Assembly (NCBI GenBank): GCA_030654835.1
Contig: JAURWS010000042.1
Location: 1 to 64,000, forward strand
From: Gammaproteobacteria bacterium
GTDB taxonomy: Bacteria; Pseudomonadota; Gammaproteobacteria; Pseudomonadales; Pseudohongiellaceae
Length of the DNA stretch: 64,000 bases
Direction of reading: 5' to 3'
Made by a program: the position numbers and the translations under genes. Numbering within the stretch: position 1 is the first letter of the stretch; the number at the start of each line of letters is the position of its first letter. Under the pieces are notes generated by a model. The model saw nothing but the letters and a program-made list of their open reading frames with translations, searched no databases and had not been told where the DNA came from. This document shows positions 13,155-35,725 of this stretch, piece by piece.

Positions 13155-13330
13155 GTGTTCTGTCCTCTTGGTGGGCCTGGGTCATTTCGAGTTTACCAAG
13201 AGCATCGCCGAAGCAGCCATTGGGATGTCTCGTTGCCATTATGAAGCTGGACTAAGTGTCAATTCAAATATATCTTCTGGCCATTCAGAAATGGCTCGAT
13301 CCAAGTTCAACCGACACAAGGTACATCCTT

Positions 13331-13930
13331 TTGAAAATCACTCCCCAACCGCTTTTCCCCAGCCTTGTCTGGTCAACCTTGTTTGACGACCGCGCGATTT
13401 TGAACTCCAGGTTGCTGGACCTTGCCAATCGCATGCGCAGCAACGACCCCAGCGGCGTGGCAAATACCAATATAAAGGGCTGGCAAAGCCCCAACAATCT
13501 GCAGTATCTGCCGGAGTTCGCGGACATCAACCTTCGTATTCTGCAGGTGTGTCAACGTATCGGCGAATCCCTGCATTTCAAGTCAAATCTTACTTACGAC
13601 CACCAGGCCTGGGTCAATATCAGCCCGCCAGGGGCTTCCAACAAGATCCACTTTCACGCCAACTGTCATTTCAGCGGCGTCTACTACATATGCTTGAAGG
13701 CGCCGGAATGCGGCAGCATTTTCTTTCGGGACCCGCGCATTGCGTCAAGGATGATGACTTACCCTGTCGACAAACCCACCGCCTTCACCGCCGAAGAGGT
13801 TCAGATGCATCCGGAAGAGGGGCGGATGTATGTGTTCCCTGGCTGGCTGGAACACGGGGTGGAGGAAAACATGAGTGATCAGGACAGGGTGAGCATCAGC
13901 TTCAATGTTCTGGCAATCCCAAACCGCTGA
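13331..13930 (+). CDS. TIGR02466-like 2OG-Fe(II) oxygenase family protein
   Basis: The frame is open from 13256, but the family's usual beginning (KITPQPLFPSLVWSTLF) is reached at a TTG at 13331 preceded by ACAAGG with a nine-base spacer, so I prefer that start (199 residues). The core WVNISPPGASNKIHFHANCHFSGVYYICL carries the double-stranded beta-helix metal region and GWLEHGVEEN the second histidine, as in the phage- and marine-associated TIGR02466 group of putative iron/2-oxoglutarate oxygenases. The final conserved Arg is probably in RVSISFNV. Substrate unknown. It stands alone, before the restriction-modification module on the opposite strand. Confidence 0.75.
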   Translation: MKITPQPLFPSLVWSTLFDDRAILNSRLLDLANRMRSNDPSGVANTNIKGWQSPNNLQYLPEFADINLRILQVCQRIGESLHFKSNLTYDHQAWVNISPPGASNKIHFHANCHFSGVYYICLKAPECGSIFFRDPRIASRMMTYPVDKPTAFTAEEVQMHPEEGRMYVFPGWLEHGVEENMSDQDRVSISFNVLAIPNR

Positions 13931-13972: not shown

Positions 13973-15181
13973 TCAGCTGACTAGGAGTAGGCATTCTTGC
14001 ACTTCTCGATGCCTATCCTTCAATCTGCCCAGCGTCATGTGTTGATGATCGGTGAAAAGAACCTCAATTTTCTTGCCGCTAAAAATTGCTGTAGCTAATT
14101 TTTCAATTTCCTCAATCGTGATCATTCCGGTATTGCTATAACTCATGGCCAGATTTGACTTGCTCTTTGCGACCCCCTTAAAAAGTTGGCAAAAAGCTTC
14201 CGTCACCTGTGACTTTATACAGAACGGTGACTGATGACGATCTTCTCTATACCGCCCCTTCACCACCACCCCATTCTTAGCCTGAAGCTTGGGGTAATCA
14301 TAAAGAACGAGAGTTTCTAGAGCATGGTAGAACCGGCTGTAATGAACAAAGCAATAAGGAGGGTCCGCATAAACAGTACCGCCACGAAGACTGCTGAGAC
14401 ACTGCCTATAATCCAACGTCGTTGTCAGGTGCCCGTACACAGGCCTCGTCTTCGGCATCCACAATAATACTTCGTTGTATTTTCTTTCAAAGTATTTAGC
14501 TACCGCCCTCTTCCTGTATATCAATATATCCGAAAGTGATCCTTCGGTTTTTGCATCTCTATACTGCGCATAGTGGCCAGTTCCCTGGCTGGTATACGCC
14601 ATCGCAAACATGAGAGATGACATTACTGCTGGATAACAAGGCTCGACTCTGTATGTCTCAGCGACTTCTCGCAATGCATCTATCCACAGACATTGTTCTG
14701 CACTCCACCAGGTGCCTGAATAATTTTTAAGGAATAAGTGCCATTCTCGCCGAAATGTTCTTGATACCAGCTGCTTCTGAAGGTCCTCCGCCGAATTGAA
14801 CTCTTCAAGACTTCCGATTGCTGAATACTCAGTGAGGCTTCCAATAGCTTTACTATTTTTTCTGACAATTGATGCAGCCTTCGTTAGTATCTGCTCAGCG
14901 CCAGGAATGCCAGAGTAACTATAAGAATTTGAGTAAGCCTGGGAGAGAATCGCTGAATACTTTTGAATATCATTCGAGTGCACGGCACACTGTTGCCCTA
15001 TGGCTCCAGCGAGCGAAGCGCTACCGGCGAAAAGGTCACATACAACTCCACCTCTGTATATCTCGTTAACCCCTTCAAGCACGAATCCCATGATTTTCGA
15101 CTTGGAACCCATGTATTTAACAAAGCTAGGATACTCAAGCTCTTCAAACAGCGCGATGGTCTCTTTTTGTACGGCTAGCAA
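13973..15181 (-). CDS. Type II DNA adenine methylase, D12 class
   Basis: 402 residues. KYMGSKSKIM (22-31) and DLFAGSASLAGAIG (49-62) form the S-adenosylmethionine pocket and DPPYCFVHYSRFY (from 273) is the N6-adenine catalytic motif of D12 (Dam-like) enzymes. A long insert (about 95-270) between these motifs would carry target recognition. The start is TTG at 15181, supported by GGAG eight bases before it; a later ATG at the GSK motif would remove the N-terminus. With the controller and nuclease on the other strand it protects host DNA. The gene is visibly AT-richer than its surroundings. The partner's BglII/BstYI relation suggests a GATC-containing site, as an inference. Confidence 0.85.
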   Translation of the reverse strand: MLAVQKETIALFEELEYPSFVKYMGSKSKIMGFVLEGVNEIYRGGVVCDLFAGSASLAGAIGQQCAVHSNDIQKYSAILSQAYSNSYSYSGIPGAEQILTKAASIVRKNSKAIGSLTEYSAIGSLEEFNSAEDLQKQLVSRTFRREWHLFLKNYSGTWWSAEQCLWIDALREVAETYRVEPCYPAVMSSLMFAMAYTSQGTGHYAQYRDAKTEGSLSDILIYRKRAVAKYFERKYNEVLLWMPKTRPVYGHLTTTLDYRQCLSSLRGGTVYADPPYCFVHYSRFYHALETLVLYDYPKLQAKNGVVVKGRYREDRHQSPFCIKSQVTEAFCQLFKGVAKSKSNLAMSYSNTGMITIEEIEKLATAIFSGKKIEVLFTDHQHMTLGRLKDRHREVQECLLLVS

Positions 15182-15194
15182 CGTTGAATCTCCA

Positions 15195-15219
15195 GAAATA
15201 TCCCAATACGGGATATTTC
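15195..15219. promoter_or_regulatory. Palindromic operator between methylase and controller genes
   Basis: GAAATATCCC (15195-15204) and GGGATATTTC (15210-15219) are perfect 10-base inverted arms around AATAC. The site overlaps the predicted transcription start of the methylase and is the natural target of the XRE controller encoded next door. Confidence 0.75.
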
Positions 15220-15223
15220 GTGT

Positions 15224-15252
15224 TTTATGCCACCATCTCTTTTCAATGTCAA
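15224..15252 (-). promoter_or_regulatory. Promoter of the methylase gene
   Basis: Read on the minus strand, TTGACA (15252-15247) is followed after 17 bases by CATAAA (15229-15224). The start would fall near 15217, inside the palindrome, so a bound controller should block methylase transcription. Confidence 0.6.
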
Positions 15253-15264
15253 ATGGAAGGCTTG

Positions 15265-15522
15265 ATGAGTCACAATATTTGGAGCTCTCACCAGACAGCT
15301 CTTCAACAACTTATGCGCAGTTTGCGCTGCGGGGCAGCGCTTACGCAACAGGAACTTGCCGCGCTTTTAGGCAAACCTCAAAGCTATGTTTCCAAATACG
15401 AAAGTGGAGAGCGCAAGCTGGATATAGTCGAGCTACGTGAGGTTTGCCTGAAGTGTGGCATTAGTTTAGAGAGTTTTGCCCACAGATTCGAAATTGTACT
15501 TGCACAGGGAGAGAAGCAATGA
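15265..15522 (+). CDS. XRE-family controller protein of the restriction-modification system
   Basis: An 85-residue helix-turn-helix protein: LTQQELAALLGKPQSYVSKYESGERKLD (about 28-55) is a standard XRE domain. The frame is open from 15184, but the ATG at 15265 follows GGAAGG and leaves the operator outside the gene. The stop overlaps the nuclease start by 4 bases (ATGA), so controller and nuclease are coupled, as in C-protein-regulated systems. It probably binds the palindrome at 15195-15219 to repress the methylase and time nuclease production. It is AT-rich like the rest of the module. Confidence 0.75.
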   Translation: MSHNIWSSHQTALQQLMRSLRCGAALTQQELAALLGKPQSYVSKYESGERKLDIVELREVCLKCGISLESFAHRFEIVLAQGEKQ

Positions 15523-16169
15523 CTTGGCAGAATTATGTCCCCGAGGACATACAAAATTTATATGAGATTCACGACTTTAAGCATGCCGCTGCAATCTTGG
15601 CTAACGAATTCGAGGAGGAATTTGCAGAAATTTGCACCGCTTTGAGAGGTTTCAAACTGGACCCTGAAGACATAACTACGGCAGGTGGCAACGAGAGTAG
15701 AATCCCAAAAAAATTCTCTGAACTACTTCGACCTACAGGCTGGGTAGAAACGAAATTGCGATCACGGCATATCGTTGATGACATAGAAATCACTCATGAT
15801 ACCCACAAAGTCGACTATCTTAAGGGACGGGTGGCATTTGATCTTGAATGGAACAGTAAAGACCAAACTTTCGATCGTGATTTATACGCCTTCAGGTCAT
15901 TCTTTGACTACGACAAAATTAGCCTTGGCATATTAGTCACACGCAGCAATCAGCTAGACCAAGTCATTGCTGGTCTTGGAAAATATATCGATTCATATGG
16001 AACTGAGAGGTCCTACAAGCAGAAATATGGCGCTAGCACTACTCATATGGGCAAGCTACTTCCTCGATTGAAGTCCGGAAGAAACGGTGGGTGTCCAATA
16101 TTAGTGTTTGGAATCACCCCACGTCTCATTAATCCGGTTGTCGCACCAGCATTGAGAACCGCGCTTTAG
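15519..16169 (+). CDS. Type II restriction endonuclease, BglII/BstYI family
   Basis: 216 residues. The central block VDYLKGRVAFDLEWNSKDQ (98-116) contains D99 and E110-x-N112-x-K114, fitting the PD-(D/E)XK variant of the BglII/BstYI group, and TFDRDLYAFRSFFDY and GILVTRSNQL follow as in that family. BglII cuts AGATCT and BstYI RGATCY, so a related GATC-centred site is likely but not shown. Translation is coupled to the controller. The reading frame is complete, with no frameshift or stop, so the system should be active if expressed. Confidence 0.8.
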   Translation: MTWQNYVPEDIQNLYEIHDFKHAAAILANEFEEEFAEICTALRGFKLDPEDITTAGGNESRIPKKFSELLRPTGWVETKLRSRHIVDDIEITHDTHKVDYLKGRVAFDLEWNSKDQTFDRDLYAFRSFFDYDKISLGILVTRSNQLDQVIAGLGKYIDSYGTERSYKQKYGASTTHMGKLLPRLKSGRNGGCPILVFGITPRLINPVVAPALRTAL

Positions 16170-16183
16170 CGCTGTGAAAAGCC

Positions 16184-17404
16184 TCAAAAGGCGCTGTAGA
16201 ACATCAGCGTAGTCATGCGCGTGCCGTTGGCAGGGCTGCCACGGTAGGCGCTGCCTGAGTACTCAGTGTGGTTGATTTGCAACTGCACGTTCTGCATCAG
16301 AGAGTAAGTGCCGCCGATCATCCATGCGTTGTCGCGGTTGTTGACTGCGCGACCGTTCTCTCCACGTCGGTAACTCGCCAACAAGGTAATCTTGCCGGGC
16401 ACTATGCCCAGCTGCCCCAGAACGGCCGCCGCTTTGCGGTCTTGCGGATTGGCATTGAACAAATTCCGCGTCACAGAACCGGCCGGTGTTCCTGCAGATT
16501 CGGCGTAGGTCACGTACACGCCCAATGGCATTTCGCCATAAGCGCCTTGTGCCTGCGCATCAACGGCCCACGCATCGGTATCGACGCGCTGCATCAATGC
16601 GGGCTCCGTAGCACTGCCACTCCAGGACTGGACGCCCAATCCGAAGTCCCAGCTGCCAATTTGTGGTGTTGCTGCCAGACGTAGATAATTCGCGGAAGAG
16701 GAGTCTGAATCATCACCCAAGGTGCGCGGAGACCACTTGCTGAAATTGGCGAAATATTGTGCATTGCTTGCCACTGCCGCGATACCCTTTGCCTTGGTCG
16801 AGGTACCAACATATTGCTGTGCCGACACCGCGCTGCGATCTTCCGCTACGCGAGCGAATCGCACGGCACCCGTGTTCAGCAATTCAAACCCATAGGCCAC
16901 GCCTTGTGACGAGGTACTGAAAGGAATCCCGCCCACCGCAACGCCACCAAGGTTGTAGATGAATGGTAGCTTGAGGCCGCTTACCAGCGGGTCCGCATTG
17001 TTCAAGTCCAACTCAACCACGGCACCAATGTTGTTGCTGATGCGCGCACCAATGTTCAACAACAATTCATCTGGAAACTGGAATTCGCCGTCGTTCGTTT
17101 TTTGGGGACCAGCCCCATTGGATTGTTGATAGCGAATCTTCGTGATAATGCCGGCGTTCAGTGAATCCTTTAAAGACAACACAGGCCCCTCGCTGCCACG
17201 TGCGGCCACACTGAAGGCATAACCGTTCGCCTTGAAACTGCGCCCGAACTGATTCAGCGCCGGATAGTTCTGAAAGTGACACGCGGCGCAGGGCATGCCG
17301 GTTTGTCGCGCATATGTGGTCACAGCCCCGGCCTGCATGGAGGCAGTCACACTCAACAACAATATGGTCAGCGCAACAAAGGGTCTTAGAAAATTCATAA
17401 TCAT
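16184..17404 (-). CDS. Cyc2-like fused cytochrome c-outer-membrane porin
   Basis: The frame is open to 17572, but the ATG at 17404 has AAGG nine bases upstream and gives a clean signal peptide (FLRPFVALTILLLSVTAS). The mature protein begins with TTYARQTGMPCAACH and continues PALNQFGRSFKANGY, matching the N-terminal signature of Cyc2, a single haem c fused to a beta barrel that in iron-oxidising bacteria takes electrons from Fe(II) outside the cell. The remaining 330 residues alternate in barrel fashion and end in an aromatic pattern (MTTLMFYSAF). Length (406) is normal for Cyc2. Iron oxidation is not shown; related proteins in heterotrophs are uncharacterised. Divergent from the dihaem peroxidase gene. 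Confidence 0.75.
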   Translation of the reverse strand: MIMNFLRPFVALTILLLSVTASMQAGAVTTYARQTGMPCAACHFQNYPALNQFGRSFKANGYAFSVAARGSEGPVLSLKDSLNAGIITKIRYQQSNGAGPQKTNDGEFQFPDELLLNIGARISNNIGAVVELDLNNADPLVSGLKLPFIYNLGGVAVGGIPFSTSSQGVAYGFELLNTGAVRFARVAEDRSAVSAQQYVGTSTKAKGIAAVASNAQYFANFSKWSPRTLGDDSDSSSANYLRLAATPQIGSWDFGLGVQSWSGSATEPALMQRVDTDAWAVDAQAQGAYGEMPLGVYVTYAESAGTPAGSVTRNLFNANPQDRKAAAVLGQLGIVPGKITLLASYRRGENGRAVNNRDNAWMIGGTYSLMQNVQLQINHTEYSGSAYRGSPANGTRMTTLMFYSAF

Positions 17405-17595
17405 ACAGTTTGGCCTTAAACAGAAAATGTGGTGACGAAAGTTTACCATCACAACCGCAGCAGTTCTGCGTGGAATCATACTGTAGCCCCCATTTCTATC
17501 GATGTGGCCAGCCTTCACCTCGGACGGTATGATCCCGGCATCGGCCCCTGTTGATGACTGCCATGTACTCACTACAACTCACTCTTTGCCAGATC

Positions 17596-19191
17596 ATGCG
17601 AAGCACCACCCGACATCGACTTCCCGTACTGGCGCTGTCCAGCTTTCTGGTTGCAGCGACCCTGTTGCCGACCCTGCAGGCACAAGAGGCCAACGACCCA
17701 TCGTGGCGGCAGTTTCAACATGCCCTGGGTATGCCCGCCCCGATTGGCGTCAACGCCAGCCACCCCCTTGCCAATTCCGTCGTGCGCCCATTCCCTGCCA
17801 TCGATCTGCAGGATATCAACCCCCGCAAATACCTGTTGGGCAATGACCTTTACCAGGAGCGCGCCCTGTCCGCCGACAACAGCATCGGCTGCTTCATCTG
17901 CCATGCCGGACCGCTCAGCGGCACCGACGGCCGACCTGTTTCAAGGGGAGTGGCTCATGCCGCAGGCAACGTCAACGCCCTGACCACCTTCAATGCCGCC
18001 TTCAATTTTCGCCAATTCTGGAATGGCCGCGCCGTCACTCTGGCCGACCAGGCCCTGCTGCCAATCGTCACCGCGCACGAGATGGCCAACACACTGGAGA
18101 AGGTGCTGGCCACATTGCAGACCGATGTCGGCTATGTGGAGGAATTCACCGCGCTCTATCCGGACGGCATCAGCAGCAACAACCTGGCCGACGCCATCGC
18201 CCACTTCGAGCGCACCAGCTTCGCCGTCACCGACACGCCCTTCCAGCGCCATCTGCAAGGCGAGGACGCAGCGCTCAGCGAACAGGAATTGCGCGGCTGG
18301 CAGCGCTTTCAGGAGATCGGCTGCAGCAGCTGCCACAACGGCATCAACCTGGGCGGCAATTCCTATCAGAAGCTGGGAGCGTTGCGGCCGTATTTCACCG
18401 TACGCCGCGAGGCCGGCCCCAATGACGCCGGGCTGGCCGAACGCAGTGGCCGCGCGCAGGACTTATACGTCGTCAAGGTACCCAGCCTGCACAACGTGGC
18501 CATGACCGAGCCCTACCTGCACGATGGCAGTCTCGATTCGCTGCAGAGCGTCACGGCAGAAATGGCTCGCTTCGAGCTGGGCAGGGAATTGAGTGAAGAG
18601 GACATTGGCGACATCGTCGTGTTTATGGTGGCCCTGAACGGCCCGCCGGCAGGCCTGGAGCTGGAAAGGGAGATCACCCAGCTGGCGCGCATCCAAGACG
18701 CGGCGACCGCAGCTGCGACTCAGTCCCCAATAGTTGCTCCACACCGCGCGGCCTACCGTGCCGCGCAGAACGCCGTGATGCCCGGGCTCACGCAGTTGCA
18801 GGCCGAGCTTGGCAGAGTCGAGTCAGGCGAGGTGGCCCATTTCGACTTCGTGCAGTTTCAACATCTGGAATTGATCCGCCACGCACGGGCGCTGCAGCAT
18901 CCACCCTCGGATCTCGCGGACAGCAACAAGCAATGTCTGCAGGACGGCGCCGTGCAGTTGCTGGAAGACGTCATGGCGCTGGAGTTGCCTATTGCCGACT
19001 ACCTGCAAGCCCGGGCCATGCTCGGCGTGCTGGACGCTCACCGACGCGTGCCAGCGCCGGACTCGCCCGGAGCCGATGAACTCGCCGCACAAAGCGCCAC
19101 TCACATCGATGCTGCGCGGGAGAGCCTGCGGGCGATCGCGGATGCGTCAATCGACGAGGCCGCGAGCTTGTTGGCGGAATGTCACTGGTAA
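17596..19191 (+). CDS. Dihaem cytochrome c peroxidase/MauG family protein with C-terminal extension
   Basis: The most likely start is ATG 17596, which gives the signal peptide RLPVLALSSFLVAATLLPTLQAQ in part; ATGs at 17554 and 17563 are also open and none has a strong ribosome site. Two haem motifs, CFICH (about 99-103) and CSSCH (about 243-247), plus IVTAHEM and VAMTEPYLHDGSL, place it with bacterial CcpA/MauG proteins. After the peroxidase core (ending near FMVALNGPPAGL) it continues for about 160 mainly helical residues not found in ordinary CcpA, with two spaced cysteines. It could reduce peroxide or oxidise another periplasmic substrate. It shares the 17405-17595 intergenic region with the Cyc2-like gene. 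Confidence 0.85.
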   Translation: MRSTTRHRLPVLALSSFLVAATLLPTLQAQEANDPSWRQFQHALGMPAPIGVNASHPLANSVVRPFPAIDLQDINPRKYLLGNDLYQERALSADNSIGCFICHAGPLSGTDGRPVSRGVAHAAGNVNALTTFNAAFNFRQFWNGRAVTLADQALLPIVTAHEMANTLEKVLATLQTDVGYVEEFTALYPDGISSNNLADAIAHFERTSFAVTDTPFQRHLQGEDAALSEQELRGWQRFQEIGCSSCHNGINLGGNSYQKLGALRPYFTVRREAGPNDAGLAERSGRAQDLYVVKVPSLHNVAMTEPYLHDGSLDSLQSVTAEMARFELGRELSEEDIGDIVVFMVALNGPPAGLELEREITQLARIQDAATAAATQSPIVAPHRAAYRAAQNAVMPGLTQLQAELGRVESGEVAHFDFVQFQHLELIRHARALQHPPSDLADSNKQCLQDGAVQLLEDVMALELPIADYLQARAMLGVLDAHRRVPAPDSPGADELAAQSATHIDAARESLRAIADASIDEAASLLAECHW

Positions 19192-19240: not shown

Positions 19241-19269
19241 TTGACATGACAATGCAATCGCATTACCAT
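19241..19269 (+). promoter_or_regulatory. Promoter with internal operator of the PrlF-YhaV operon
   Basis: TTGACA (19241-19246) and TACCAT (19264-19269) have an ideal 17-base spacer. Inside the spacer AATGC-AATC-GCATT (19251-19264) is a perfect short palindrome, a good site for autorepression by the AbrB-fold antitoxin. Confidence 0.65.
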
Positions 19270-19302
19270 TCAGGCATCAGCCTAATTCGGCAGGAAGAAG
19301 TT

Positions 19303-19632
19303 ATGTCTACAAGCCTCGACGTTGAATCCACACTAACCGATCGCTATCAAACCACGGTTCCGGAAACTGTGCGCCGCGCCCTCAGGCTGGGCAAGCGCGA
19401 CAAGCTCCACTACAGCATCCGCCCCACCGGCGAGGTAGTGCTGACGCGGGCGAAAACATTGGAAGGTGATGACCCCGTGCTTGATCAGTTCCTCAACTTC
19501 CTGGCTCGTGATATCGCCAGTCATCCGGAGCGCCTCCAAATCGTGGACGCAAGCCTCGTGCAGCGACTTGAGTCGCTGGTAGGAGGCATCAATGTCGATC
19601 TCGACACCGCCCTGTCGGCAGATGATGAATGA
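19303..19632 (+). CDS. prlF: PrlF-family antitoxin (AbrB fold)
   Basis: 109 residues from ATG 19303 (AGGAAGA ribosome site); the open frame reaches 19246 but that part overlaps the promoter. ESTLTDRYQTTVPETVRRALRLGKRDKLHY is the swapped-hairpin AbrB/SpoVT DNA-binding domain, and the acidic C-terminus (VDLDTALSADDE) is suited to neutralise the toxin. It should bind YhaV and repress its own operon at 19251-19264. The 4-base overlap with the toxin gene is typical. The symbol is by family resemblance. Confidence 0.85.
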   Translation: MSTSLDVESTLTDRYQTTVPETVRRALRLGKRDKLHYSIRPTGEVVLTRAKTLEGDDPVLDQFLNFLARDIASHPERLQIVDASLVQRLESLVGGINVDLDTALSADDE

Positions 19633-20147
19633 CGATGAGCAACGCTGCGCCGCTGGTCATTAATGGCTGGACCGTTTTTGCGCACCCGCTGTTCCTGACT
19701 CAGCTTGATGCTTTGATTCAGCAGGTGGAATCGTTGCAGCAGAAGGATCAGACCGGCTACCTCAAGAAGAACGCCAGCAAGCGACTGGCCGCGATTACCA
19801 AGCTGGCGTTCCATGCCATTCCCCAAGACCCTGCCAGGCTGGAGTACCGACAGGGCGGCACCTTGGGAGATGACCACAAACACTGGTTCCGGGCCAAGTT
19901 CTTTCAGCAGTTCAGACTATTCTTTCGCTACCACGCTGCAAGCAAGGTGATCGTCTACGCTTGGGTAAACGACGAAGACACAAAGCGCGCCTTTGAAAGC
20001 AGTGGAGACGCATATCGGGTCTTTCGCAAGATGCTGGAAAAAGGGCACCCACCTGATGATTGGGACCAGCTCGTATCTGAGGCGCAGGATGTATCACAGC
20101 AGATGCAGCAGTCGTTAGCGAAAGCTGGAAAAAGCCTTACCCAGTAA
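19629..20147 (+). CDS. yhaV: YhaV-family ribonuclease toxin
   Basis: 172 residues. LVINGWTVFAHPLFLTQLDALI at the N-terminus (in parts), then HKHWFRAKFFQQFRLFFRYH and IVYAWVNDEDTKRAFESSGDAYRVF, match the YhaV toxins, RelE-like mRNA interferases. The pair PrlF-YhaV is complete and the toxin frame intact. In Escherichia coli this toxin cuts mRNA in the stress response; here the same role is inferred. A second possible ATG three codons in does not change the domain. Confidence 0.85.
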   Translation: MTMSNAAPLVINGWTVFAHPLFLTQLDALIQQVESLQQKDQTGYLKKNASKRLAAITKLAFHAIPQDPARLEYRQGGTLGDDHKHWFRAKFFQQFRLFFRYHAASKVIVYAWVNDEDTKRAFESSGDAYRVFRKMLEKGHPPDDWDQLVSEAQDVSQQMQQSLAKAGKSLTQ

Positions 20148-20194
20148 CTCTCTTACCGTCGTCCTGACCATCACACGCTACCCACCTATCAGGA

Positions 20195-20253
20195 TTGAAC
20201 ATAACCAGAACGAAGGCTATCATCTGATACATAGAATGCTAATCAGGTGATAG
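20195..20253 (+). promoter_or_regulatory. Promoter and operator of the Xre-RES operon
   Basis: TTGAAC (20195-20200), 17 bases, TATCAT (20218-20223). An imperfect inverted repeat CTATCATCTGAT (20217-20228) and ATCAGGTGATAG (20242-20253), 11 of 12 matching, covers the -10 element and the ribosome site, fitting autorepression by the Xre antitoxin. Confidence 0.7.
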
Positions 20254-20255
20254 CT

Positions 20256-20762
20256 ATGTCCCGGCCAAAAAAAGTGACTTCTTCGAAAACCAAATCCGTC
20301 GCAATGATCACCGGCGCGCCGAAAAAAAGTGTCGCAGAGCCAGAGGCGCTGTATTCAGTCAGCCTGTACAAGGCGCTGGACATCCCCTCCGGAGGAGAGC
20401 TTCTGTTCCAGGCTTTGCACAAGGGCTTCCGTTTCTCGGTCTACAACAAACTGGCGGCCGCCAGCGGTCTGGAGAAAAAGCAGGTTGCGCAATACGCGCT
20501 GCTGCCAACAGCGACGTTGAGCCGACGCGCGAAATCGGGCCACTTCAACACCGATGAAAGTGATCGCCTCTTCAGATTGACGCAGGTGATGGACGCCGCC
20601 ATTGGGCTTTTTGAAGGCGACCGGCACGCCGCCATGCAGTGGCTGGAGAAGCCAGCGCCGGGGCTGGGTAATCGAACTCCTGCTCAGATGATGGGAACGT
20701 CAGTCGAATCCAGGGCCGTGCTGGATCTGATAAGCCAGCTGGAGCACGGCGTCATCGCATGA
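20256..20762 (+). CDS. Xre/MbcA/ParS-type antitoxin
   Basis: 168 residues from ATG 20256; a GTG three codons earlier is open but overlaps the operator. A basic Lys-rich N-terminus is followed by a helix-turn-helix domain (SVYNKLAAASGLEKKQVAQYALLPTATLSRR, about 65-95) and a C-terminal DUF2384-like segment (AMQWLEKPAPGLGNRTPAQMM) that binds RES toxins in known complexes. The start of the toxin gene overlaps by 4 bases. It probably represses transcription through 20217-20253. Confidence 0.85.
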   Translation: MSRPKKVTSSKTKSVAMITGAPKKSVAEPEALYSVSLYKALDIPSGGELLFQALHKGFRFSVYNKLAAASGLEKKQVAQYALLPTATLSRRAKSGHFNTDESDRLFRLTQVMDAAIGLFEGDRHAAMQWLEKPAPGLGNRTPAQMMGTSVESRAVLDLISQLEHGVIA

Positions 20763-21232
20763 AGACTGTCAGCGTCTATCGCATGGTCAAGACCAAGTGG
20801 GCTGCCACGGCTTTTGACGGTGATGGCGCCAGGGTTACTGGTGGGCGCTGGAACAGCAAGGGCGTCCCCTGCGTCTACACCTCCGCATCAGAATCTTTGG
20901 CGTTGCTGGAAATACTGGTGCATCTGCAGGACGCCTCTTTGCTGCGGTCTTACACCGTTTTCGAACTGCGGATACCCGAAAACCTGATAGCTGTGATACC
21001 GGAAGGCAAGCTCCCATCCGATTGGCAGCAGCCGCTCTCCCCACCGTCAACGGCAGTCCTTGGAGACGAATGGCTGAAGTCTGCATCACTCGAAATGGCG
21101 CTCGCAATCCCGAGCACTATCGTTCCTCGCGAGATGAACTACCTGCTCAATATCGCTCACCCTGAGTATCAGAGCATCGCATCTCAGGCAAAGCAGATGC
21201 CGTTCAATCCCGACCCGAGACTTGCTCGATAG
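20759..21232 (+). CDS. RES-domain toxin (NAD+-degrading family)
   Basis: 157 residues. R30 in GGRWNSKG, Y40, E51 in ASESLALLEILVHL and the Ser of MALAIPS are the positions that define the RES domain, whose characterised members are NAD+ phosphorylases that deplete NAD+ and halt growth. The gene is intact and coupled to the antitoxin. Together with PrlF-YhaV it forms a block of two TA systems with no other cargo. Confidence 0.85.
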   Translation: MKTVSVYRMVKTKWAATAFDGDGARVTGGRWNSKGVPCVYTSASESLALLEILVHLQDASLLRSYTVFELRIPENLIAVIPEGKLPSDWQQPLSPPSTAVLGDEWLKSASLEMALAIPSTIVPREMNYLLNIAHPEYQSIASQAKQMPFNPDPRLAR

Positions 21233-21413: not shown

Positions 21414-22244
21414 ATGCTCACCAAACGCATGACACTGGCCGCCCTCATGGTCACCACCATGGTTACCTCAACCCTTGCCAGCACAGCTGTCATGGCAGAC
21501 GACCTGCAGCGCCTGCGCGAGGTCAGTGAGGGGGCGCACCGCTCTGCCGCCAATATCGCCCGCAACGATGCAAGGCACCCCGTGGAGACCCTCGACTTCT
21601 TCGGGCTGAAATCCGGGATGACCGTGATCGAGATCCTGCCGGGCGGCGGCTGGTATGCCGAAATTCTCGCGCCCTTCCTGAAGGGTAACGGCACCTACTA
21701 CGCCGCGCATTTCTCGCCGAATTCGCAGCTCTCGTACCAGCCACCGATGCTGCAGCAGTTCCGCGACAGAGTGACAGGCAACCCGGAAGTCTACGGCGAA
21801 ACCATCATCACCCACCTGTATCCGCCCAACGAGACCGCCATTGCGCCGCCTGGCTCGGCAGACCTGGCACTGACATTCCGCAATGTCCATAACTGGGTCA
21901 TGGCCAATACGCAGAAGGAGCATTTCGCGGCCTTCTACACGGCACTCAAACCGGGCGGCATACTCGGCGTGTCCGAGCACCGGGCGCCCGCTGGCAGCAC
22001 CATGGAGTTCATGCAAACCACGGGCTATGTCTCCGAGGAATACGTCACCCAGCTGGCCACCGAGGCAGGCTTCGAGTTCGTTGCGTCATCCGAGATCAAC
22101 GCCAACCCGCTGGACACCAAAGACTATGCGGAAGGTGTGTGGACCCTGCCCCCGACGTTGCGCATGGGTGATCAGGACAAGGAGAAATACATGGCCATCG
22201 GCGAGAGCGACCGCATGACGCTGAAGTTCAGAAAACCGGAGTAG
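21414..22244 (+). CDS. Exported methyltransferase-like protein (COG4798 type)
   Basis: 276 residues with a signal peptide (cleavage near VMAD, about residue 28). The Rossmann-type domain has an altered motif I, VIEILPGGGWYAEILAPFL, an acidic strand SADLALTFRNVHNWV and LKPGGILGVSEHR, all in the order of class I SAM methyltransferases. Because S-adenosylmethionine is not expected outside the cytoplasm, the exported form is puzzling and the protein may use another ligand. CAGGAG lies before the ATG. It stands alone between the RES toxin and the TetR operon. Confidence 0.75.
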   Translation: MLTKRMTLAALMVTTMVTSTLASTAVMADDLQRLREVSEGAHRSAANIARNDARHPVETLDFFGLKSGMTVIEILPGGGWYAEILAPFLKGNGTYYAAHFSPNSQLSYQPPMLQQFRDRVTGNPEVYGETIITHLYPPNETAIAPPGSADLALTFRNVHNWVMANTQKEHFAAFYTALKPGGILGVSEHRAPAGSTMEFMQTTGYVSEEYVTQLATEAGFEFVASSEINANPLDTKDYAEGVWTLPPTLRMGDQDKEKYMAIGESDRMTLKFRKPE

Positions 22245-34343: not shown

Positions 34344-34778
34344 TTACAGCGATTCAACAAATGCCGCAAGATTTGCGATATCGGCATCGGACAGCGCCGC
34401 TGCCACGGCGAACATCATGGCACTCTGCGGGCCACGTGCCACGTTGCTCTTGTAGGTGCTCAACGCGTCAGTCACAAACGCTGCATCGCGAGCATTCAGT
34501 TGTGGGCCGATACTGCCTTCACCGCCAGCGCCGTGGCAGGCCGCGCAGGTAACGAACAGAGCCTTGCCCAGATCGGCAGGGCTGGCGGCGCTGGCGGCTT
34601 CGAGCGCGGCGCGGGCTTGCTCGACTATGGTGCCATTCTCTGCCAGATAAGCGGTGTAGCATTCGCCGACGCAGTTATTGACCTGCGGACGATCCTGAAT
34701 CTCCAGAGTTGATCTAGCGGTAACGAAGATGACGACAGAGACAATGGCGACTAATGCGATATTGATTAAAACTTTCAT
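34344..34778 (-). CDS. Monohaem cytochrome c
   Basis: 144 residues from ATG 34778 (AGGA upstream); the open frame extends to 34991 but overlaps the exonuclease gene. An N-terminal helix (INIALVAIVSVVIFVTA) is probably an anchor or signal, then after an unusual NNCVGECYTAY pair of cysteines comes LFVTCAACHGAGGEGSIGPQL, a class I cytochrome c with CAACH. The sixth ligand is likely one of the Mets in SAMMFAVAAALSD. A single electron carrier for the periplasm; partners unknown. Confidence 0.85.
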   Translation of the reverse strand: MKVLINIALVAIVSVVIFVTARSTLEIQDRPQVNNCVGECYTAYLAENGTIVEQARAALEAASAASPADLGKALFVTCAACHGAGGEGSIGPQLNARDAAFVTDALSTYKSNVARGPQSAMMFAVAAALSDADIANLAAFVESL

Positions 34779-34963
34779 GGTAGTCCTGATGGTAGATCCT
34801 GATGGTAAATCGTGGTGGTTGGGAGGCTCGTCGCAGAGCGGGTAGGAGCCGGTCACTAATTTTGGGCGCGCGATTATAGCCCAGGCAGGAGAGAATTCAG
34901 CAATTTGCAGAAAAAAAACCCGAATGCCGCCAGAATCGGGATATCGCGTCGAATCTATTGTGT

Positions 34964-35725
34964 TTAGCGCATCTGCAGCACGACGGGGCAATGATCTGCG
35001 CCGTGCACATCGTTGAGGATCTCGACGCCTTCAATACGATCCTGCAACGCCCGTGAGGTCAGAAAATAATCGATGCGCCAGCCGACATTGCGCGCACGTG
35101 CACCGCCCCGCATGCTCCACCAGCTGTACTTGATGGTGTCCGGATACAGGTGTCGAAATGTATCGATATAACCGGCGGCCAATAGCCTGTCCAACCCGTC
35201 AATCTCCGCCTGGGTATACCCGGCACTTTTATTGTAATTCGCTTCCGGCCGCGCGATGTCGATCGGACGATGCGCGACATTGAGATCGCCGCAGATAATC
35301 ACGGGCTTGCGCTTTTCCAGCGTCAGAATGAAGTTCGTGAACTGAATATCCCAGCGCTGCCGGTACTCCAAACGCTTGAGCCCATCGCCGGAATTGGGCG
35401 TATACACCGTGACAATGAACCAGTCGTCAAACTCCGCAGCGATAACGCGGCCCTCCTGATCGTGCTCCTCGTCGCCAATGCCATACTGCACCGACAGCGG
35501 CTCTGTTCTGCTGAATATTGCGGTGCCGGAGTAGCCCTTCTTCACTGCCGAACTGCTATACAGGTGATAGCCCGCGAGCTCGGCGACGGCCTCGCGCACC
35601 TGATCATCCTGCGCCTTGGTTTCCTGCAGACACAACACCTCCGGGCGCATCTGTTCGACGGAGTTCAGAAAATCTTTCTTCATGACGGCGCGAATGCCGT
35701 TTACATTCCAGGAAATCAGTCGCAT
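34964..35725 (-). CDS. xth: Exodeoxyribonuclease III
   Basis: 253 residues, full length. ISWNVNGIRAV, LCLQETKAQDD, ICGDLNVAH and NVGWRIDYFL with ADHCPVV supply the Mg-binding Glu, Asn/Asp and catalytic His of the AP-endonuclease/exonuclease III family. It repairs abasic sites and trims 3' ends. GGAAGGA precedes the ATG. Divergent from the cytochrome b561 gene. Confidence 0.95.
   Translation of the reverse strand: MRLISWNVNGIRAVMKKDFLNSVEQMRPEVLCLQETKAQDDQVREAVAELAGYHLYSSSAVKKGYSGTAIFSRTEPLSVQYGIGDEEHDQEGRVIAAEFDDWFIVTVYTPNSGDGLKRLEYRQRWDIQFTNFILTLEKRKPVIICGDLNVAHRPIDIARPEANYNKSAGYTQAEIDGLDRLLAAGYIDTFRHLYPDTIKYSWWSMRGGARARNVGWRIDYFLTSRALQDRIEGVEILNDVHGADHCPVVLQMR

Follow-up and report, generated by a model that had tools for sequence, protein, structure and literature searches.

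A cluster 1 Cyc2 cytochrome-porin at a variable locus of an apparently heterotrophic gammaproteobacterium

Cyc2, an outer-membrane protein through which known iron-oxidizing bacteria take electrons from dissolved iron, is a leading marker for neutrophilic iron oxidation. What, then, would a protein of this kind do in a bacterium that appears to live on organic matter? The question is raised by a 64,000-nucleotide stretch of DNA (contig JAURWS010000042.1, positions 1 to 64,000, of assembly GCA_030654835.1; hereafter the window) from a gammaproteobacterium of the family Pseudohongiellaceae, in which a gene for a Cyc2-like cytochrome-porin, cyc2 (16184..17398, minus strand), is divergent from a gene for a dihaem peroxidase. 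A first-pass annotation, made from the sequence alone, had read the pair as a possible electron-uptake route, with the peroxidase as periplasmic partner of the porin. By sequence, phylogenetic tree, and predicted fold, the window protein is a clear member of Cyc2 cluster 1, the group of the neutrophilic iron oxidizers.

Identity of the cytochrome-porin

The preferred start of cyc2 is the ATG at 17398, which gives a protein of 404 amino acids beginning MNFLRPF, with a signal-peptide-like N-terminus and a start region that agrees with those of relatives; the listed GTG at 17572 lies too far upstream. The open reading frame (ORF) and its divergent neighbor are confirmed as real, and chance is excluded for cyc2 because the protein is 77%, 66%, and 64% identical over its full length to those of three relatives and has 257 relatives in a named genome collection. 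The protein contains TTYARQTGMPCAACHFQNYPALNQFGRSFKANGY; its porin domain matches Pfam Porin_4 (E 7e-7), and the barrel begins at about residue 80. The single CXXCH motif lies near the N-terminus at residues 37-41, in a protein with only two cysteines, and the haem-binding core of residues 30-41, ARQTGMPCAACH, is encoded at 17276..17311 on the minus strand (counted from the ATG at 17398). The motif PXL follows four residues after CXXCH (CHFQNYPAL), as it does in all 81 sequences compared (the window protein and those of 80 named loci) if L or I is allowed, and all 81 are at least 365 amino acids long. The genome (3.84 Mb in 60 contigs, estimated to be 100% complete and 1.7% contaminated) has one cyc2 copy.

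The structural model of the window Cyc2 is a 16-strand barrel (predicted local distance difference test score, pLDDT, 87.8), with OprO/OprP as its best structural match. A sequence search of the PDB gave no match, and a profile search gave one at chance level (E 0.58).

The 257 relatives were confirmed in one scan of the named collection, and the best 80 were kept as loci, three of which (L068, L069, and L070) are the same loci as in the family members G025, G049, and G009. Best-segment identity to the window Cyc2 is 58% in Nitrosomonadales, 57% in Hydrogenophilales, 55% in Gallionella, 54% in Gallionellales 39-52-133, and 53% in Sulfuricaulis; it is 50-51% in Hydrogenophilus and two Campylobacterota, and 41-45% in Chlorobium ferrooxidans DSM 13031, Chlorobium sp. 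N1, and Pelodictyon luteolum CIII. Across the class, 64 genomes of an even sample of 369, the host included, match a four-sequence Cyc2 profile.

Named rows were chosen for the trees by their likeness to the window protein, with no Mariprofundus, Acidithiobacillus, or Leptospirillum row among them. A quick tree of 108 rows places the window protein inside an 87-row clade together with the proteins of all the taxa just named, from Nitrosomonadales to Pelodictyon (SH-like approximate likelihood ratio test, 98). A careful tree of 54 rows has a branch with support of 100/100 that separates 42 rows, including the window protein and those of the iron oxidizers, from 12 distant homologues; it groups the window protein with three family relatives (100/100) and contains a 12-row subclade with Gallionella, Sulfuricaulis, Hydrogenophilus, and Sulfurimonas (100/99). 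The recognition of Cyc2 by the first-pass annotation is borne out, with 41-58% identity to Cyc2 of Gallionella, Sulfuricaulis, Hydrogenophilales, and Chlorobium ferrooxidans and a place beside the proteins of Gallionella and Chlorobium; neither of the outcomes named there as counting against it, a position outside the Cyc2 clades and a missing barrel, occurred. Passages of PMC8406198 and PMC12442345 name Gallionellaceae, Zetaproteobacteria, and iron-oxidizing Chlorobium as the groups of cluster 1, and the former reports Fe(II) oxidase activity for a cluster 1 Cyc2.

Three further observations concern other Cyc2-like proteins. A cytochrome-porin-like type in two genomes (L008 in G018, L011 in G035) has a Cyc2-like start followed by CSGCHSAFPALN or CSSCHSALPALN, sits on a very long branch of the 108-row tree, and may be a separate family. 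A distant Cyc2-like protein (L007) occurs in G058, a genome of genus code g8, to which two genomes with the window type also belong. On a contig titled Campylobacterales (L134), a Cyc2 is nested among those of Chlorobiaceae in the 108-row tree, by recent transfer or binning error.

Host metabolism and electron donor

A search of the host genome for RuBisCO gave no match (5 of 14 controls matched), and the Photo_RC reaction-centre family likewise gave none (among the same controls, Synechococcus only matched). Phototrophy with iron as donor was rejected on the missing Photo_RC match. Both results support the earlier description of the host as apparently heterotrophic, carbon dioxide fixation being covered by the RuBisCO search alone. 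The record titles of three orthologue genomes (UppL6, UppL7s, and ErkenSummer) presumably denote Swedish lake metagenomes, and a lake habitat, with organic matter as food, is probable for the bacterium. A window protein that by eye resembles a TonB receptor matches the genome in 20 stretches, among which are parts of a single gene.

Respiratory components are present. There are four COX1-family genes, of which two belong by context to an aa3-like and a cbb3-like operon (named by eye); the other two proteins, also judged by eye, are one of 782 amino acids resembling quinol nitric oxide reductase and a 918-amino-acid fusion with three CXXCH motifs. Cytochrome-c domains gave 27 matches in the genome; of these, 24 exceed the cut-off, and some lie within oxidase subunits. 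Elsewhere in the window, a c-type cytochrome gene lies at 34344-34991 (Cytochrom_C, E 9e-10). A search with TIGR03509 (MtrB/PioB) for a second, multihaem conduit gave no match in the genome and none in the controls, and since it matched no control we conclude nothing from it on the absence of such a conduit.

We consider it reasonably probable that this predicted 16-strand outer-membrane porin with an N-terminal single-haem c-type cytochrome gives a heterotroph supplementary electron uptake, most likely from Fe(II). The Cyc2 pore would admit a reduced donor, in all likelihood dissolved Fe(II) and perhaps reduced humics, and the haem at its periplasmic mouth would accept the electron. A soluble periplasmic cytochrome encoded elsewhere, either dihaem and c4-like or monohaem, would then carry the electron onward, with the cbb3 or aa3 oxidase as its end point, providing extra respiratory energy to a cell growing on organic carbon (lithoheterotrophy). 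The first steps follow the scheme in passages of Keffer et al. (PMC8406198), in which a dissolved donor moves into the pore and one electron passes to the periplasmic-side haem, to be carried on by a soluble cytochrome.

Several points weigh against this reading. The window has AVTTYARQT where the consensus is AXPXFAR[QK][TY]: A, A, R, Q, and T match, with T in place of P and Y in place of F. The strict motif occurs in 56 of the 81 sequences and is absent from 10 of the 12 members of the window's subclade, Gallionella L072 among them. In the careful tree, the next fork within the 42 rows is weak (81/45). OprO leads other porins by only about 2 Z units, and Foldseek's own ranking has PorB on top. 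The model contains no haem, and its haem domain is of low confidence (pLDDT 53-59 at residues 21-50 and 61-70), so that of the 16-strand barrel with haem plug that the first-pass annotation named as a check, the barrel is predicted and the plug is modelled without confidence. No cytochrome gene adjoins the window cyc2. The literature searched contained no assay of the window Cyc2 or of others in its close subclade, and, according to passages of PMC12442390, cyc2 expression in Sideroxydans CL21 did not track iron oxidation and can be high without it.

The main rival to Fe(II) is reduced organic matter: the same protein and electron route would serve chiefly for electrons from reduced dissolved organic matter, the hydroquinones of humic substances. 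The lake-like record titles, as we take them, fit such a donor. Addition of dissolved organic matter raised cyc2 expression in the lake methanotroph Methylobacter S3L5C (passages of PMC12211021), Cyc2 homologues occur in 29 humic-bog metagenome-assembled genomes, some of them from bacteria with no known extracellular electron transfer (passages of PMC6344600), and the Chlorobium passages of PMC12285243 are cited for reduced organic matter. Against it, the passages cited here show no direct oxidation of humics by a Cyc2, which PMC12211021 terms speculated, and the tested donor of cluster 1 is Fe(II) (PMC8406198, in part); we regard humics as main natural donor as rather unlikely.

A role in sensing or protection, with Cyc2 made (e.g., as a sensor of Fe(II)) and no energetic role, is improbable: a passage of PMC12442390 suggests that Cyc2 may act as an Fe(II) sensor, and a patchily distributed single gene with no co-located electron carrier would suit such a role, but the genome has oxidases and c-type cytochromes, and the window Cyc2 groups with the proteins of iron oxidizers.

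The neighboring peroxidase and the variable locus

The divergent gene (17551..19191, plus strand) encodes a dihaem cytochrome c peroxidase of the CcpA kind with a C-terminal extension of about 170 amino acids; the ATG at 17596, which gives a signal peptide, appears a likelier start than the TTG. The protein has two CXXCH motifs and a CCP_MauG domain (Pfam, E 3e-42). Among solved structures, the 15 matching entries that are dihaem cytochrome c peroxidases have E values of 2e-45 to 3e-63 (best, 9qdt), and MauG sequences match at 5e-13 to 3e-11. Its best NCBIfam matches, MbnH (E 1e-37) and MauG (4e-34), speak against the CcpA-kind reading, at scores far under the cut-offs (130 of 363 bits and 118 of 444 bits, respectively). 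In MauG, Tyr is an axial ligand of one haem. The window peroxidase has Met at a column where five solved peroxidases also have Met, in an alignment that contained no MauG row; this conserved Met we take to be a haem ligand of CcpA. By sequence, the gene is nearest the dihaem cytochrome c peroxidases, not MauG, so that the description as a divergent, extended MauG-type peroxidase stands as to the gene, its orientation, and its extension, and is imprecise as to type. The extension has no Pfam match and is common to many relatives in the host's family. A second long dihaem peroxidase of the genome (L161; G000 C22:52253-53710), with a related C-terminal extension, lies near the 918-amino-acid COX1-family fusion.

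The two genes were followed in a set of 95 relatives, the host included, and in the fetched flanks of the 80 named cyc2 loci, which average a little under 5 kilobases (kb) per side. Twelve of the 95 genomes match Cyc2. Besides the host's own, the clear orthologues are those of G009 (77% identity), G025 (66%), and G049 (64%), and a fragment cut by a contig end in G010 (92%); the remaining seven matches (E 3e-15 to 7e-5) cover the N-terminal third only. The genome of G009 has Cyc2 and no match to the peroxidase, and in four others (G002, G004, G023, and G041) the peroxidase occurs without a Cyc2 match and adjoins other genes (that of G004 reaches the contig end). The peroxidase is absent from the fetched cyc2 flanks in L015 and L016; the sequence of L017 stops about 160 bp upstream of the cyc2 start. 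In one of the 80 named loci, that of Gallionella L072, a remote peroxidase homologue lies downstream of cyc2 (22% identity, E 2.5e-4). Contig ends cut both genes in G010, where cyc2 and peroxidase may therefore be adjacent.

On distribution and gene order we reject the peroxidase as the periplasmic partner proposed earlier: it is probably not a partner of Cyc2 and would instead be an independent H2O2-reducing enzyme. A dedicated two-gene route, with Cyc2 passing electrons to the adjacent dihaem protein, is most improbable, since its divergent neighbors in the window, the arrangement permitted by the contig ends of G010, and the remote homologue in L072 stand against uncoupled occurrence in these five genomes and 79 named loci whose fetched flanks have no homologue.

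In known loci, cyc2 often has a cytochrome gene as its immediate neighbor, unlike in the window. Among the 80 named loci, 10 of Chlorobium type have a single-haem ORF directly upstream, and 8 from proteobacteria have a dihaem ORF on the downstream side, next to cyc2. A cytochrome conserved beside cyc2 in the window's subclade was considered and rejected: the haem-motif ORFs near cyc2 in L071, L072, L076, and L078 are of different kinds, and there is none beside cyc2 in L015, in L016, or on the peroxidase-free side of the window gene. In G025, a gene that by eye resembles cytochrome b561 lies about 0.5 kb away from cyc2, and the c4-like proteins of the host's own genome are candidates only. At the Sulfuricaulis locus L071, about 4.5-5.4 kb upstream of cyc2, ORFs with four and ten CXXCH motifs are followed by a 757-amino-acid outer-membrane-like ORF, in an arrangement that looks of the Mto/Pio type. 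At L071, L074, and L075, a lipoprotein-like ORF directly downstream of cyc2 has the stretch HSKRP(I/V)VL in common (similarity by eye).

The window cyc2 is an accessory gene in a changeable part of the chromosome. The left border of the variable stretch is a 2-oxoglutarate-Fe(II) oxygenase-like gene (13256..13930, plus strand), and the right border a gene with weak methyltransferase matches under Pfam cut-offs (21414..22244, plus strand). Between the oxygenase gene and cyc2 lies a BglII-type restriction-modification system (13973..16169, mixed strands) that comprises a D12 methyltransferase (13973-15181, minus strand), a helix-turn-helix regulator (15184-15522, plus strand), and a BglII-like endonuclease (15519-16169, plus strand); PADLOC recognized the methyltransferase but not the endonuclease. 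Next to the peroxidase, a PrlF-YhaV toxin-antitoxin pair (19246..20147, plus strand) and a RES-domain gene with a 171-amino-acid ORF upstream together span 19246-21232. GC content is 0.559 in cyc2 and 0.560 over the whole window; the peroxidase gene has 0.629, and the restriction-modification stretch 0.451. These values give no sign of a very recent arrival of cyc2 and a foreign look to the restriction-modification genes.

The site differs among relatives. In G010 there is no restriction-modification system between oxygenase gene and cyc2, the ends of which almost touch, and on another contig the peroxidase adjoins a HipA-type gene and a YhaV homologue. In G009 the border genes are 1.6 kb apart (the right one 88.8% identical) with neither cyc2 nor peroxidase between them, and cyc2 is on a different contig, C224. 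Four genomes without a Cyc2 match (G011, G004, G006, and G001) have the oxygenase gene with no cyc2 beside it. The gene occurs in 2 of 13 congeners, one of which has it elsewhere and not at this site; with genome completeness at 76-100%, single absences are uncertain. Vertical inheritance within the family was rejected in two forms of the approximately unbiased (AU) test: a grouping of the Cyc2 of G025 and G049, both of genus g8 (p-AU 0.0004), and one holding four family members with the distant homologues L006 and L007 of their order (p-AU 9e-9), values that are generous because the tree was already known when the groups were chosen. Because of the site differences and the rejected g8 grouping, repeated moves or losses of cyc2 appear to have taken place in this family. 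That it is a movable add-on of freshwater heterotrophs, taken up once by the family from a Gallionella- or Sulfuricaulis-like source, then moving between species and sites and giving a light outer-membrane electron inlet for iron or reduced humics, is a tentative suggestion to which we give somewhat less than even chances; if it were true, lake iron oxidation would be in part a mixotrophic property of strains, not of lineages.

Comparison with known systems

A cluster 1 cyc2 in a RuBisCO-negative genome, at sites that differ in close relatives, advises caution: presence of the gene is no proof of lithoautotrophy. The finding is instead a pointer to electron uptake by mixotrophs of the lake plankton. 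Cyc2 beyond known iron oxidizers is already in print (passages of PMC8406198, PMC6344600, and PMC10654088), and the kind of finding is expected because homologues have been published from humic-bog bacteria (PMC6344600, in part). Literature searches on Cyc2 with Pseudomonadales, freshwater Gammaproteobacteria, and stratified boreal lakes gave, among the matches listed, no report of this lineage's Cyc2, although the data of Olmsted et al. 2023 may include it. The family and cluster were already known; new are the host lineage, the accessory and shifting position of the gene, and a corrected reading of the peroxidase.

The neighboring enzyme resembles bacterial CcpA in its two CXXCH motifs, CCP_MauG domain, and Met in common, and differs from it in the extension that Pfam does not match. 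Compared with cluster 1 Cyc2 (Mariprofundus ferrooxydans PV-1, Gallionellaceae, and iron-oxidizing Chlorobium), the window protein differs in a host without a RuBisCO match, in T and Y for consensus P and F, and in having no adjoining cytochrome gene; it is alike in the single CXXCH with PXL and RQ upstream, the fused, predicted 16-strand OprO/OprP-like porin, full-length homology, and a place in the same clade as Gallionella and Chlorobium in both trees. Its architecture is also that of clusters 2 and 3 (Acidithiobacillus Cyc2 and Leptospirillum Cyt572; PMC8406198, in part); to place the 12 distant homologues beyond the 100/100 branch, L006 and L007 included, in cluster 2 or 3 would be a guess. 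The MtoAB, PioAB, and MtrAB complexes are like Cyc2 in functioning as outer-membrane electron conduits and, unlike it, consist of a multihaem protein inside a 26-strand barrel that is separate from it (PMC8406198, in part).
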